Assembly: GCA_023823795.1 (NCBI GenBank)
Contig: CP085710.1
Span: 3,498,001 to 3,562,000, forward strand
From: Bacillus sp. F19
Lineage (GTDB): Bacteria > Bacillota > Bacilli > Bacillales > Bacillaceae
Direction of reading: 5' to 3'
DNA: 64,000 bases
The notes under the pieces were generated by a model. It saw nothing but the letters and a program-made list of their open reading frames with translations. It had not been told where the DNA came from and did not search any database. Positions 54,433-60,023 of this stretch are shown piece after piece. The translations under genes and the position numbers were made by a program. Position 1 is the first letter of the stretch. Every line of letters begins with the position of its first letter.

Positions 54433-54687
54433 AAAAAAAGGACAGAGACCCCCCTTTATGTAAAAAGGAAGTCTCTGTCCCTGCACCTGAAAGTTTACCT
54501 TGCCAAAAATAAGCAAAGCTTTCCCCTTTGGTGGTTTGCTGCTTTCACAAACTCTCTCCAGAGTTGCGTCAAACAAGAGTTCTTTTGCCTGAGAGATTCA
54601 CAGATGTTTGCTCCTTCGGCGCTGCTTTTGCGGTTTCATTTATTAGAACCGCCGGCAGTCTCTCCCCTTGCTCTCATTCGCTCATAT
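54433..54687 (-). promoter_or_regulatory. Tandem glycine riboswitch with terminator
   Basis: On the minus strand, aptamer 1 contains GGAGAGACUGCC, CGCCGAAGGAGCAAA and AUCUCUCAGGCAAAAG. Aptamer 2 contains CUGGAGAGAG, CACCAAAGGGGAAA and ACUUUCAGGUGCAGGGACAG. The expression platform is a 10-bp stem (54440-54449 with 54471-54480) plus T-tract. Glycine binding should disrupt the terminator and turn on gcvT-gcvPA-gcvPB, as known for B. subtilis. Confidence 0.96.
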
Positions 54688-56690: not shown

Positions 56691-57485
56691 ATGCTGCAGC
56701 AAGAGATCAGTCAATTCTTAGAAAGTTTTTTCACAGCAAATTCGTGTCAAATCATTGATAAACACCCAGGATATATGACTGTGCAGTTAACAATCGAAAT
56801 GGATAAAGAGCTGATGAACCGCCCTTTTTACTGGACCTATCTTGAAAAAACCGGCGGTGTTCCAAATCCCATGCAGGTGACATTTCTTACAGATGCCAAA
56901 CAGGCTCCTGAAGATTTAAAAGGAGAGATTATGCATTTCGGGGCACCAAGACTTCATCAGATTTACCAGGCGAGCAAAAAGCTTGGAAGTCACATCCGCC
57001 TTTATGAAAACTCTCCGAATAATGGAAGCTCGCAATCACTTCACCCATGGCTCGGAGTAAATGTCATGGTATCTTATCAGAGCGACAAAAAGAAGGACCA
57101 TTTATATTCAATCGGTCTTCATTTGATCAGTGGAGCAATCATCGAAAATTTCCAGGATCATTTAGAAAAAATGACCTTAACTCCGCGAATTCCTGATCTT
57201 TGCTTTACAACATCCCCAATGATTAAGGAACAAAGCGGGTTAAATCGCATTCAGAACTATATTCAATCTATTATTGAGAAGGATGACCACTCATGGGCAG
57301 ACAATGCAAGACAGCGCTGGAACTCTGATATGATGCTGCTCAGTCATTTTTATGAAGACCTTGATGAGAAACCGGAAGCCTACCAATTAGAAAAAGCAGC
57401 ATTGAAAGAATTATATGATCCGCAAATAAATGTTTCGATTGTAAATGGCGGAATTTTTTATTTGTCGCAAAATGCGTTCTATTAA
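56691..57485 (+). CDS. yqhG: YqhG-like protein, unknown function
   Basis: 264 residues, no signal peptide or membrane segment. Family resemblance and place 25 bp after yqhH identify it as YqhG, with AAGGAGG before the ATG. It is rich in aromatic residues (RPFYWTYLEKTGGVPNPM). The constant pairing with yqhH suggests a shared task; the function is unknown. Confidence 0.88.
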   Translation: MLQQEISQFLESFFTANSCQIIDKHPGYMTVQLTIEMDKELMNRPFYWTYLEKTGGVPNPMQVTFLTDAKQAPEDLKGEIMHFGAPRLHQIYQASKKLGSHIRLYENSPNNGSSQSLHPWLGVNVMVSYQSDKKKDHLYSIGLHLISGAIIENFQDHLEKMTLTPRIPDLCFTTSPMIKEQSGLNRIQNYIQSIIEKDDHSWADNARQRWNSDMMLLSHFYEDLDEKPEAYQLEKAALKELYDPQINVSIVNGGIFYLSQNAFY

Positions 57486-57660: not shown

Positions 57661-57704
57661 ATCGACACATTTCAGCACAAAAAGTAAAAACCATTTTTTA
57701 TAAT
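57661..57704 (+). promoter_or_regulatory. Putative Spo0A-dependent promoter of sinI
   Basis: TATAAT at 57699-57704 has no -35 box at the right distance. Instead, minus-strand TGTCGAT (57667-57661, one mismatch to TGTCGAA) and TGCTGAA (57677-57671, two mismatches) lie exactly 10 bp apart, at about -50 and -40. Spo0A-activated sigma-A promoters have this arrangement, and B. subtilis sinI is one. Activation by Spo0A~P here is inferred. Confidence 0.5.
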
Positions 57705-57787
57705 AGTAGTAAATAAGATATATATACCTTAAGGACTAAAGAAACAATTTTTGATTTTTGCAGACTGTACTATTGCACATAATCAGA

Positions 57788-57869
57788 CAAAGGCAAACTT
57801 GCTGAAAAGCAAGGACGCAAAGTCACAGATCTAAGGTTCTTAATAACTATGATGGCTGGACTGCCTGAA
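57788..57869 (+). promoter_or_regulatory. Cyclic-di-GMP-I (GEMM) riboswitch before sinI
   Basis: P1 is closed by AGGC (57791) and GCCT (57863-57866). P2 is CTTGCT-GAAA-AGCAAG (57798-57813) with the GNRA tetraloop, followed by the invariant GACGCAAAG (57814-57822). P3 has CAG...CTAAGG and ends ATGATGGCTG, the expected tetraloop receptor and stem. All landmarks of the c-di-GMP-I class are present in order. Downstream, AAATAC-N6-GTATTT abuts the AGGAGG ribosome site, and no T-tract is seen, so control is probably translational. Confidence 0.9.
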
Positions 57870-57899
57870 ATACAGAGACGTATTTTAGGAGGAGAAAAA

Positions 57900-58031
57900 A
57901 TGGAGATGTTAATGAAGGAAGTAGAAAAGATGGATCAGGAATGGAAAGATTTAATACTGACAGCTTTGAAAATGGGAATCAGCAAAGAAGAAATAAGAGA
58001 ATTTTTGAAAACGCAAACACTTAAAAATTGA
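57900..58031 (+). CDS. sinI: SinI-like anti-repressor
   Basis: 43 residues from the ATG at 57900, 7 nt after AGGAGG. The SinI/SinR dimerisation domain fills it: KMDQEWKDLILTALKMGISK then EEIREFLKTQ. B. subtilis SinI binds SinR through this domain and frees matrix genes. An in-frame ATG at 57849 lies inside the riboswitch P3 stem and is not a start. It lacks the longer C-terminal tail of B. subtilis SinI. Confidence 0.88.
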   Translation: MEMLMKEVEKMDQEWKDLILTALKMGISKEEIREFLKTQTLKN

Positions 58032-58128: not shown

Positions 58129-58464
58129 ATGATTGGTGAACGCATCCGTAAATACCGCAAAGAACGAGGACTTTCTCTATCAGAGCTTGCCGATCGCGCT
58201 GGTGTTGCTAAATCATATTTAAGTTCAATTGAACGGAATCTGCAGTCTAATCCTTCTGTTCAATTTCTTGAAAAAGTCTCATCCGTACTGGGAGTATCCA
58301 TGAATACCCTAATTTTAGACGAACCAATTTATGAGACAAAAAAAGATAATCTTGATAATGAATGGGCAAACCTCGTGAGAGAAGCGATGGATTCTGGTGT
58401 AACGAAGGATCAATTTCGTGAATTTCTTGAATTTAACCGGTGGAAAATGAACCAAGATAAATAA
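58129..58464 (+). CDS. sinR: Biofilm/motility master repressor SinR
   Basis: 111 residues, full family length. An N-terminal Xre-type helix-turn-helix (MIGERIRKYRKERGLSLSEL ... GVAKSYLSSIERNLQSNPSV) and a C-terminal SinI-like dimerisation hook (NEWANLVREAMDSGVTKDQF) are both intact. It represses matrix operons and is antagonised by SinI. Its own promoter lies between sinI and sinR, as in B. subtilis. AAGGTGAT precedes the ATG. Confidence 0.94.
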   Translation: MIGERIRKYRKERGLSLSELADRAGVAKSYLSSIERNLQSNPSVQFLEKVSSVLGVSMNTLILDEPIYETKKDNLDNEWANLVREAMDSGVTKDQFREFLEFNRWKMNQDK

Positions 58465-58465
58465 T

Positions 58466-58509
58466 GAAAGCTTGTACCTTGTGTAATGCTATTAATAAGG
58501 TGCTTTTTT
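58466..58509 (+). terminator. Terminator of sinR
   Basis: AAAGC...ACCTT (58467-58480) pairs with AAGGTGCTTT (58496-58505), with a 4-nt bulge, followed by TTTTTT. A second plus-strand hairpin, GCGTTCTGG with CCCAGAGCG (58563-58586) followed by TTTTTAT, acts as back-up. Confidence 0.6.
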
Positions 58510-58592
58510 CATGCTGCAATTCTTATTTGATTGTTAAGATAACTAATCAATCTATTAGACAGGCGTTCTGGCACATTCCCAGAGCGTTTTTA

Positions 58593-58793
58593 TTATGCGT
58601 ATTTATTAAAATGGTTGGTTAATTTTATTTCATTCTTTGAAAAATACTTTTCCTGATTAAAAATAGGCAAATGCACGGCTCGAATTGCTCTTATTTTTGT
58701 TAGATCATTTGTGCAGATTGGACATATCCATCGATCTGCCGGGCAGCTGCTGAATGATGGCTGATAACAGCGATTACAAAGTTTTTTATACAT
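58593..58793 (-). CDS. Small zinc-ribbon-like protein, unknown
   Basis: 66 residues. The ATG at 58793 follows GGGGGA by 7 nt. Cysteines in the pattern CNRC...C...CPIC within the first 30 residues suggest a zinc knuckle; the rest is basic. I do not recognise the family. It lies 16 bp after the end of the DUF5658-like frame and is probably co-transcribed with it. Confidence 0.55.
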   Translation of the reverse strand: MYKKLCNRCYQPSFSSCPADRWICPICTNDLTKIRAIRAVHLPIFNQEKYFSKNEIKLTNHFNKYA

Positions 58794-58809
58794 AAGACTG
58801 TCCCCCGCT

Positions 58810-59108
58810 TTATATGAAAATTAAGTAAATCCAATAAACATGCATCGCTAAAACAATCCCATAAGCAAAAAATGCCGTAAAAGCAATGAATTTTACTGCC
58901 GATGACGACGGCGAGCACCTGAAATAAATAAATAAATACAAGAAAATGGAAAAAATAGTTTAAAACCTGAAAATAGCAGGGGATGTATCTCATAAAGCGA
59001 CTCCATAAATGGATTAGCTTCAGCTATTAAATTGTAGTGAAGACCAATAACAGTAAGCCCTGCAACTAATGCATTGACAACAGCCAAGAATATGAAAGCC
59101 TGTCTCAA
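58810..59108 (-). pseudogene. DUF5658-like membrane protein, apparent frameshift
   Basis: The first frame (TTG start at 59108, after AGAGG) gives RQAFIFLAVVNALVAGLTVI, then EANPFM and a second helix, typical of DUF5658, and stops at 58893-58895 after RRRHRQ. The next frame downstream, without a start, reads FTAFFAYGIVLAMHVYWIYL and ends at 58810, which is the expected last helix of this family. One missing base near 58905 (in GTCGTCATCG) would join them into about 99 residues. It could instead be a real short protein or a sequencing error. Confidence 0.5.
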
Positions 59109-59353
59109 GGGAGCCATCCTCTTTATGGTTTACCGAAGGGTATTCTTTATTAAGAACATTTCAGCAGTAATTAAGAAAAATCTATTACATAATTAGCTTT
59201 CGAGAAGTATTTAATAAATGGATCTATTAAATTATATGCCGTTAAAGGCAATTAATATATCATCAAAAACCGTCATTCTTTTCGTTTTAAAGAACATTTT
59301 TCAAGGATTATCTGTTATTTACTCTCTTTCTCTTACTTTTTATCACTTTATAA

Positions 59354-59375
59354 AGAACAATTTGTTCTATATAAT
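59354..59375 (+). promoter_or_regulatory. Promoter with SinR-type operator before mini-sinR
   Basis: TATAAT lies at 59370-59375. Immediately upstream AGAACAATTTGTTCT (59354-59368) is a perfect palindrome. Extended, it reads AAAGAAC (exact SinR half-site GTTCTTT on the minus strand) and GTTCTAT (one mismatch to GTTCTYT). Another AAAGAAC is at 59289-59295. A repressor here would cover the spacer. The rest of 59118-59353 is AT-rich with no gene. Confidence 0.6.
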
Positions 59376-59407
59376 GAAATCAGACTGATAATTAAGGAGC
59401 CTTTTGG

Positions 59408-59542
59408 ATGATTGGGGAAAGGATTAAATATTTACGTCAACAGAAAGGAAATTCCCATCTTATTTCAGAGGCCATTGACCAGGGATTGACCAGGGATGAT
59501 TTTCGTACGTTTCAGGATTTAATAAAATTTAAACGATATTAA
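59408..59542 (+). CDS. Mini-SinR: SinR paralogue lacking the DNA-binding domain
   Basis: 44 residues. The ATG at 59408 follows AAGGAG by 8 nt. It begins MIGERIKYLRQQKG, close to the SinR start MIGERIRKYRKERG, then jumps to SEAIDQGLTRDDFRTF, close to the SinR tail REAMDSGVTKDQFREF. About 60-70 residues (the whole helix-turn-helix) are missing. The product is therefore a SinI-sized dimerisation peptide that might bind SinR. An 11-bp tandem repeat ATTGACCAGGG occurs at 59474-59495. Not a known named gene. Confidence 0.65.
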   Translation: MIGERIKYLRQQKGNSHLISEAIDQGLTRDDFRTFQDLIKFKRY

Positions 59543-59574
59543 GAAAAGGAATGAACAAGAGGTCGGTGACTGAA

Positions 59575-59683
59575 ATGAAAGCTTAATCTTGACTCAGAAT
59601 GGCTTTCACTTATAGAGGAAGCGAGAGTGTCAGGTTTAACAATAGAACAGATCTCTTCCTTTCTCCGTAAAAATAAAAAAAGA
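59575..59683 (+). pseudogene. Second sinI-like gene, broken by +1 shift
   Basis: ATG AAA GCT at 59575 (GGTGA 5 nt upstream) runs straight into TAA. If one T at 59583-59584 is skipped, the frame continues NLDSEWLSLIEEARVSGLTI then EQISSFLRKNKK, a clear SinI/SinR hook similar to SinR NLDNEWANLVREAMDSG. There is no start codon in that frame before the motif. It also lacks a clean stop and runs into the opposite gene. Probably a decayed paralogue; programmed +1 shifting is a remote alternative. Confidence 0.55.
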
Positions 59684-59685
59684 AT

Positions 59686-59707
59686 AAAGCCGCTCTTTAA
59701 CGGCTTT
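59686..59707 (-). terminator. Terminator of the Gly-rich membrane protein gene
   Basis: AAAGCCG (59686-59692) and CGGCTTT (59701-59707) form a 7-bp stem with an 8-nt loop. On the minus strand it continues ATTCTTTTTTTATTTTT. Confidence 0.75.
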
Positions 59708-59714
59708 ACTCCAG

Positions 59715-59939
59715 TTAATCTCCTCCGCCCCCTCCACCGCCGTCACCGCCGCATGAATCTCCTCCGCCTCCCCAGTCAAAGAAGCCAGAGTCCGAGTGAT
59801 GACGGTCATCTGAATCTGATCCGGCAAAAGGATATAAAGCTGAGGAATCAGTGCCTTTGTTTCTTTTTTTACTTCTATACCCGTCTGTAACAATTGCAGC
59901 AATAAATAAAATAAAAAAGAAAATAATCACGAATACCAT
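59715..59939 (-). CDS. Small membrane protein with Gly/Asp-rich tail
   Basis: 74 residues. The ATG at 59939 follows AAGGGGG by 7 nt. One N-terminal membrane helix (VFVIIFFFILFIAAIVTDGY), a short basic stretch, then an acidic and His-containing region and a tail of Gly/Asp (FDWGGGGDSCGGDGGGGG). Such tails occur on many small Bacillus membrane proteins. Function unknown. Confidence 0.6.
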   Translation of the reverse strand: MVFVIIFFFILFIAAIVTDGYRSKKRNKGTDSSALYPFAGSDSDDRHHSDSGFFDWGGGGDSCGGDGGGGGGGD

Positions 59940-60023
59940 TTTATTGCCCCCTTCAGATAATAAACCCTTTTTGAATAACGACTCCTTTTTTGGTAAAAAT
60001 AACTAAAAAGGAAGGTGATACGT

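Follow-up and report, generated by a model that had tools for sequence, protein, structure and literature searches.

For Bacillus methanolicus MGA3, the available text of a 2015 RNA-seq study places putative c-di-GMP riboswitches ahead of sinI among others, and its Table 4 carries an entry '(c-di-GMP)-sinI' (BMMGA3_08510) under biofilm formation control (PMC4342826). The association between riboswitch and sinI is therefore not wholly new, being in print for one species. Bc1 of Bacillus thuringiensis binds c-di-GMP and, in the accessible part of its report, its genes show no c-di-GMP-linked change of expression (PMC11218506). For Paenibacillus, an antisense c-di-GMP-I riboswitch near a SinR-like XRE regulator is described in the portion of the source at hand (PMC9943018). 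In B. subtilis, DgrA and the yda operon mediate the action of c-di-GMP (PMC7064775, PMC5422440); within the available excerpts, the first of these papers mentions no riboswitch, SinR or SinI, and the second names riboswitches once, in general terms, with SinR absent.

The sin locus of Bacillus sp. F19 and its aptamer

We analysed a 64,000-nt stretch of Bacillus sp. F19 DNA, referred to here as the window. The original prediction had placed a c-di-GMP-I aptamer directly upstream of a sinI-like gene, and both parts hold: RF01051 matches over model positions 1-87 of 87, well above its gathering score, and the downstream open reading frame is a PF08671 SinI (Table 1). The sinI product scores below the NCBIfam NF046031 equivalog cut-off (37.8 vs 80 bits). 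A gap of 31 nt separates the aptamer end from the sinI start. This is the sole RF01051 match in the 5.59 Mb genome (E 3.9e-17 in the whole-genome search), and it is one of two Rfam matches at threshold in the window. The other is a glycine riboswitch aptamer at 54567-54677 (-) before gcvT (66.1 bits), present as one aptamer at threshold here versus tandem pairs in several relatives.

Table 1. Coordinates of the features at the sin locus, numbered from the first letter of the window.
Feature	Position	Strand	Basis or remark
yqhG, syntenic neighbour and survey anchor	56691-57485	+	PF11079, 398.9 bits
Spo0A-box-like ATCGACA	57661-57667	+	38 nt before the -10-like TATAAT
TATAAT, sinI -10 candidate	57699-57704	+	sequence
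c-di-GMP class I riboswitch aptamer	57782-57868	+	RF01051, 85.4 bits (gathering score 35), E 1.9e-15 in the search over the whole window
P1 5' strand UCAG	57783-57786	+	pairs with CUGA at 57865-57868
Hairpin 5' arm CCUGAAAUAC	57864-57873	+	57865-57868 doubles as P1 3' strand
Hairpin 3' arm GUAUUUUAGG	57880-57889	+	takes in the first AGG of the ribosome site
Ribosome-binding site AGGAGG	57887-57892	+	sequence; 7 nt before the start codon
sinI, 43-aa anti-repressor	57900-58031	+	PF08671, 49.8 bits (cut-off 31.4)
sinR, 111-aa repressor	58129-58464	+	PF01381 (HTH_3), 63.9 bits; PF08671, 51.9 bits

The order yqhG-sinI-sinR marks this as a true sin locus. An SNF2-type helicase gene also lies upstream of sinI, at the yqhH position. 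In B. subtilis, the tapA-sipW-tasA operon follows sinR. No such operon was seen at 58465-60015, between sinR and a DUF3889 gene at 60015, and the genome has no PF12389 match for a TasA-type matrix protein. This interval does hold a 44-aa open reading frame (59408-59542, +) with a SinR-like start (MIGERIKYLRQQKGN) running into a SinI-type tail, which looks like a second sinR-like gene that has lost its middle; at two other loci (L011, L012), a 116-aa SinR-like gene lies some 960-970 nt after sinR.

The TATAAT at 57699-57704 is the likely -10 element of the sinI promoter, from which the RNA would begin about 70 nt before the aptamer. Upstream of it lies ATCGACA, which resembles a Spo0A box. Among the 13 leaders shown, nine (the window, L190, L155, L158, L120, L156, L021, L015 and L082) have a TCGACA-type box at a distance of 37-38 nt from a downstream TATAAT, and in the remaining L157, L033, L042 and L014 none was found at this place. 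Because sinR has a TATAAT upstream, it probably has a promoter of its own.

The GGC, CGCAAA and CC core of the aptamer is invariant in 13 leaders chosen by Rfam only, namely the window and 12 others. It is likewise unchanged in 33/33 leaders of a larger alignment (A2), where letter conservation is partly built in, since 32 of these leaders entered by a pattern requiring GGCAAAC and a GTATTTT- or GTATAAT-type 3' arm. These 33 distinct leaders come from the window's genus and other genera, with L033 added by hand. In some more distant leaders (L256, L257, L258, L265 and L272) the GGCAAA core is broken. We take GGC, CGCAAA and CC to contain the ligand-contacting residues, after the Vc2 structure; the mapping of the Vc2 contacts G20, A47 and C92 onto the window aptamer is our own. 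A G at Vc2 position 20 argues for c-di-GMP over cGAMP as ligand. We considered cGAMP and disfavour it, as all 13 Rfam-chosen leaders, and also the five core-deviating ones, have a G ahead of CAAA.

Pairing in the aptamer is also conserved. Across the 33 leaders, 14 pairs of the aptamer, P1 included, have changed on both sides, 96.5% of cells are paired, and 0/500 shuffles equal this. P1 itself is a helix of 3-4 bp, with 4/4 pairs in 55 and at least three in 82 of 87 leaders, a set made up of the 33 and model-found leaders of other families that were exempt from the selection pattern. Both P1 strands have changed together in just three of the 87 (L033, L209 and L243). In 42% of combinations a foreign P1 strand finds full pairing with the flanks, and pairing therefore says little for P1 taken by itself. 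Judged from sequence, the window holds a true c-di-GMP-I riboswitch at sinI, and a strongly conserved one.

The genome encodes one GGDEF match, a 588-aa protein with a GAF domain and a GGEEF motif, together with one nearly full-length and two partial EAL matches. A supply of c-di-GMP therefore exists. GGDEF matches number 3 to 6 in seven relatives within the genus (G001-G007) versus the one in this genome (G000). No PilZ domain was found in the genome. A c-di-GMP-II search gave no match, but its control search likewise gave no match in any genome, so this negative carries no weight. Among the GGDEF, EAL, PilZ and c-di-GMP-I searches, the sinI leader would thus be the only c-di-GMP receptor recognised in this genome.

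A hairpin overlapping P1 and the ribosome-binding site

Directly after the aptamer, the sequence CCUGAAAUAC-AGAGAC-GUAUUUUAGG (57864-57889) can form a 10-bp hairpin that ends inside AGGAGG and takes up its first three bases. The original prediction had described a hairpin AAATAC-N6-GTATTT; that stem is real, and it is merely the upper part of the longer one (57864-57873/57880-57889). The 5' arm and P1 have the four bases CUGA in common, so that formation of either P1 or the lower hairpin half excludes the other. Neither P2 nor P3 shares bases with the hairpin.

This hairpin is conserved in the alignment of 33 leaders: its pairing holds in 99.7% of 330 cells, and at two of its pairs both sides have changed, a covariation that 1/500 shuffles reached. 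When the partner strand is slid by 1 to 3 columns, pairing falls to 33-50%. In minimum-energy folds, CC is closed with GG of the ribosome site in 84/87 leaders; the exceptions are L269, L271 and L247, the last owing to a wrongly picked C. The arms are identical in 46 of the 87, and there are 22 arm pairs overall (one, in L247, misassigned), several of them changed nearly throughout, such as CCUAAGGC/GCUUUAGG, CCUGUCAG/CUGAUAGG and CCUGUGC/GCAUAGG. Within genomes, the hairpin pattern is close to unique: it occurs once per genome in 8/9 genomes searched, five of them of the B. subtilis-type genus (g2), and every match lies in a sinI leader. In G043, for example, the single match at 2552408 precedes a SinI match at 2552476. 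The ninth genome (G054) has a variant arm, and a reversed control pattern gave 0 matches in this search. We rejected a chance hairpin on the strength of the covariation, the 84/87 closure and these near-unique matches; the arrangement is kept across many genera and is therefore not chance.

We compared the two states with ViennaRNA. Without ligand, the state with the full hairpin has a computed energy of -28.6 kcal/mol vs -20.7 kcal/mol for the state with P1 and a short upper stem, so the default state is predicted to be closed, with ligand energy needed to open it. The modelled unpaired probability of UUUUAGG is 0 to 0.01, and that of the adjoining AGGAG is 0.28-0.69, that is, partly open. 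Because the hairpin spans just the first half of AGGAGG and the adjoining bases are partly open, repression may be partial or leaky.

These features suggest a c-di-GMP riboswitch that sets sinI translation and is turned on by its ligand, a reading to which we give a probability of roughly 0.68. Without ligand, the 10-bp hairpin would join CCUGA, at the 3' end of the aptamer, to the UUAGG of the ribosome site; few ribosomes would then start on sinI, and SinR would stay free to repress. Binding of c-di-GMP would stabilise P1 (UCAG/CUGA) at the expense of the lower half of the hairpin, leaving a weak 5-bp stem and a free AGGAGG. SinI would then be made and bind SinR, and SinR-repressed genes would come on. 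Since sinR apparently has its own promoter, outside the control of the aptamer, the switch would change the ratio of SinI to SinR.

The original prediction had held that ON could not be told from OFF. We find that ON can be predicted, because the 3' strand of P1 overlaps the 5' arm that pairs with the ribosome site. Under the opposite sign, c-di-GMP would promote a closed ribosome site and lower SinI, and SinR would stay active. Such an arrangement is compatible with the freedom of P2 and P3 from the hairpin, and with the folding of a 156-nt piece without constraints, whose minimum-energy structure (-33.0) keeps P2 and the hairpin, though not P3, and so retains the hairpin beside part of the aptamer. 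However, ligand binding stabilises P1 of the c-di-GMP-I aptamer, and the shared strand is exactly that of P1. Competition between P1 and the anti-site arm is the most sensible reading of their conserved overlap, and we regard an OFF switch as unlikely.

Translational control, which the original prediction had suggested, holds as a sequence feature of this platform: the hairpin runs into AGGAGG and no U-run follows it, on which ground we rejected a terminator. Many c-di-GMP-I switches of Firmicutes do act through terminators. Control of transcription at sinI, whether by a terminator or by Rho, would have a further precedent in the two terminators of Bc1, to go by the available text of that study (PMC11218506), but here the hairpin runs straight into the ribosome site, and the hairpin-bearing leaders printed from other genomes lack a U-run as well. 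We consider such control highly improbable.

Spread of the sinI riboswitch

All 8/8 genomes of the window's genus have an RF01051 match, each with the aptamer followed by a SinI gene. Second RF01051 matches occur within the genus at L009 (G005, 71.1 bits) and L010 (G006, 42.4 bits). Relatives of the locus fall in RF01051 or in its sister model RF03167 (c-di-GMP-I-GGC).

The original prediction had proposed a survey of sinI leaders in related Bacillaceae, and the surveys given here find the link between riboswitch and sinI kept across many genera. With yqhG as anchor, we scanned the best 80 of 85 loci, all 80 of them with Rfam. In this set, 13/80 loci carry sinI-sinR after yqhG, and RF01051 or RF03167 precedes sinI in 12/13 of these; none of the 67 yqhG loci without sinI has the aptamer. 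The one sinI without it is that of Metabacillus fastidiosus (L020, the same leader as L111 and L199, from G055), which lacks an aptamer by Rfam and such a hairpin by eye. We then considered the GTDB family, a set of 81 genomes of which 44 belong to g2 and 37 to other genera. Outside the B. subtilis-type genus, pattern search and inspection by eye place the riboswitch at sinI in 34/37 genomes; it was not found in G055, G072 and G061, the SinI places of G061 having been left out of the viewing.

R1, a covariance model that combines aptamer and hairpin, has matches in 345/397 genomes of the order at E <= 0.001, many of which may be ordinary c-di-GMP-I aptamers. Among the matches listed, we examined 65: 25 returned loci, those beyond the first five, which were of the window's genus, and 40 high-scoring matches picked by hand to spread families. 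Two of the 65 (L221 and L208) duplicate leaders used in building R1. SinI lies directly downstream in 57/65 of these loci, which span 22 GTDB families. A SinR-like protein is encoded within 900 nt in just 25 of the 57, so many of these are lone SinI genes. L218, L220, L222-L224, L228, L231 and others have such a lone SinI under the riboswitch, with SinR not found within 900 nt. In the other 8/65 (L250, L254 and L259-L264), the profile recognised no SinI directly downstream. Two of these, L250 and L264 (family f40), show a c-di-GMP-I-type aptamer with a similar anti-site hairpin.

Leaders of the B. subtilis type and known systems

SinI-domain matches are present in 44/44 genomes of g2. The original prediction had held that no riboswitch is known at sinI of B. 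subtilis, and the searches agree: RF01051 matches in 0/14 well-known control genomes, B. subtilis among them, and 18 B. subtilis-type sinI leaders gave no c-di-GMP hit in a search of all Rfam families with E up to 10. Just before sinI, 42/44 g2 genomes nonetheless keep a hairpin of the form UGAAAUAC-N-GUAUUUURGG or like it. Of the other two, G037 has a variant of this hairpin, and G015 showed no sinI next to sinR.

That these leaders retain the hairpin without the aptamer means that the hairpin has some value alone. It also bears on whether the aptamer matters at all: c-di-GMP might bind and hardly alter sinI in cells, or the hairpin might mainly protect the mRNA or constitutively damp translation. 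Bc1, as described in the accessible portion of its report, is a precedent for binding with little effect (PMC11218506). Against this, aptamer and hairpin stand together at sinI in 34/37 of the family's genomes once the B. subtilis-type genus is set aside, and at the SinI genes of 22 families, and we think it improbable that the pair has so slight a role.

Pieces of the aptamer may also persist beside the g2 hairpin, and they differ between clades. Beside the hairpin, 17 subtilis/licheniformis-type leaders have AUGGCCGGACUGG or a near form vs AUGGCUGGACUGC in the window aptamer. At its anchored place, this 3' strand piece, found in 17 of 42 leaders, is equalled by at most 1/500 shuffles; no 5' piece is seen in the same types (8 to 161 of 200 shuffles as good). 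In 17 pumilus-type leaders, two of which are alike over the compared stretch, GAUCAGUCAAAAGCAAA or a near form lies about 105 nt upstream vs AAUCAGACAAAGGCAAA in the window. For this 5' piece, at most 6/200 shuffles are as good in 16/17 leaders, and the 3' strand is not seen in the pumilus types, where 23 to 111 of 500 shuffles do equally well. In the remaining 8 leaders, the anchored score beat most shuffles for some (L119, 0/500) at absolute scores of about -14, and with scores so low we claim no aptamer trace there.

An nhmmer profile of the aptamer only matched 9/42 remnant leaders, all of the pumilus type, and 0 of the 17 subtilis/licheniformis-type leaders. Position-anchored scoring is more sensitive than nhmmer and was chosen after the nhmmer result. 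R1 matches many g2 leaders at 11.6-33.7 bits, scores that are not an independent test of a remnant because R1 includes the hairpin. Given the 9/42, the case for a remnant rests on the hairpin, the anchored scoring and the shared promoter layout.

On this evidence, the sinI leader of B. subtilis looks like the remnant of a riboswitch. The simplest history would be that an ancestral riboswitch decayed differently in two clades, with the 3' strand retained in the subtilis/licheniformis types and the 5' piece in the pumilus types; that the aptamer was gained late, ahead of this same hairpin, across more than twenty families is much less likely. We hold it probable that c-di-GMP control of SinI translation is old and general across the order, and that B. 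subtilis and its close relatives lost it as their leaders decayed.

By eye, pumilus-type leaders (L157, L163, L165, L170, L174-L181, L185, L189 and L195-L197) show traces of UCAG..AGCAAA, of GACGCAA and of the platform. Their P2 loop is long and altered, and GACGCA/UGCGUU may form a new stem. Such leaders may represent a functional RNA of some other sort and not plain decay. In the four subtilis/licheniformis-type leaders that were translated (L190, L155, L158 and L164), an identical 12-codon open reading frame, MAGLAEIHKQVF, ends in a UAG that overlaps the sinI ribosome site. We rejected a leader peptide as the cause of hairpin conservation: the pumilus types have no start and, viewed by eye, the frame varies among riboswitch leaders. 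The MAGLAEIHKQVF peptide may still have a role within the subtilis/licheniformis clades.

A riboswitch of this kind would join c-di-GMP, a general settling signal, to the matrix-or-motility switch of bacilli at one short gene. If the control is general, biofilm work in Bacillaceae beyond B. subtilis should start from c-di-GMP; if the loss reading is true, the textbook Sin switch, which works without c-di-GMP, is a derived exception. The B. subtilis leader would then be a case of a riboswitch that has lost its sensor and kept its output hairpin, and it raises a testable question on c-di-GMP and sinI.

To a specialist, the kind of element is already known, and what is new is its breadth, its proposed mechanism and the apparent B. 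subtilis remnant. In the open-licence PMC literature, as far as its available text extends, we found no description of the platform, sign, spread or B. subtilis remnant. The closest system, (c-di-GMP)-sinI of B. methanolicus, is like the window in having a putative c-di-GMP riboswitch before sinI. Compared by description, the accessible text on it amounts to a sentence and a table row, without structure, platform, sign, survey or a link to B. subtilis (PMC4342826). Bc1 shares a c-di-GMP-I aptamer and belongs to the B. cereus group, with dual regulation of transcription and translation; it differs, in the excerpts at hand, by its two terminators, its long platform and downstream genes that do not respond to c-di-GMP (PMC11218506). 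The Paenibacillus case likewise ties c-di-GMP-I to a SinR relative, but there the riboswitch is, in the available part of the paper, predicted to be antisense to the regulator gene and does not lie in a sinI leader (PMC9943018). Relative to the RF01051/RF03167 class as a whole, the window aptamer is an ordinary member in being full-length and above threshold; it differs in that it would control a SinI anti-repressor, through a compact platform that uses the P1 3' strand itself as the arm pairing with the ribosome site.
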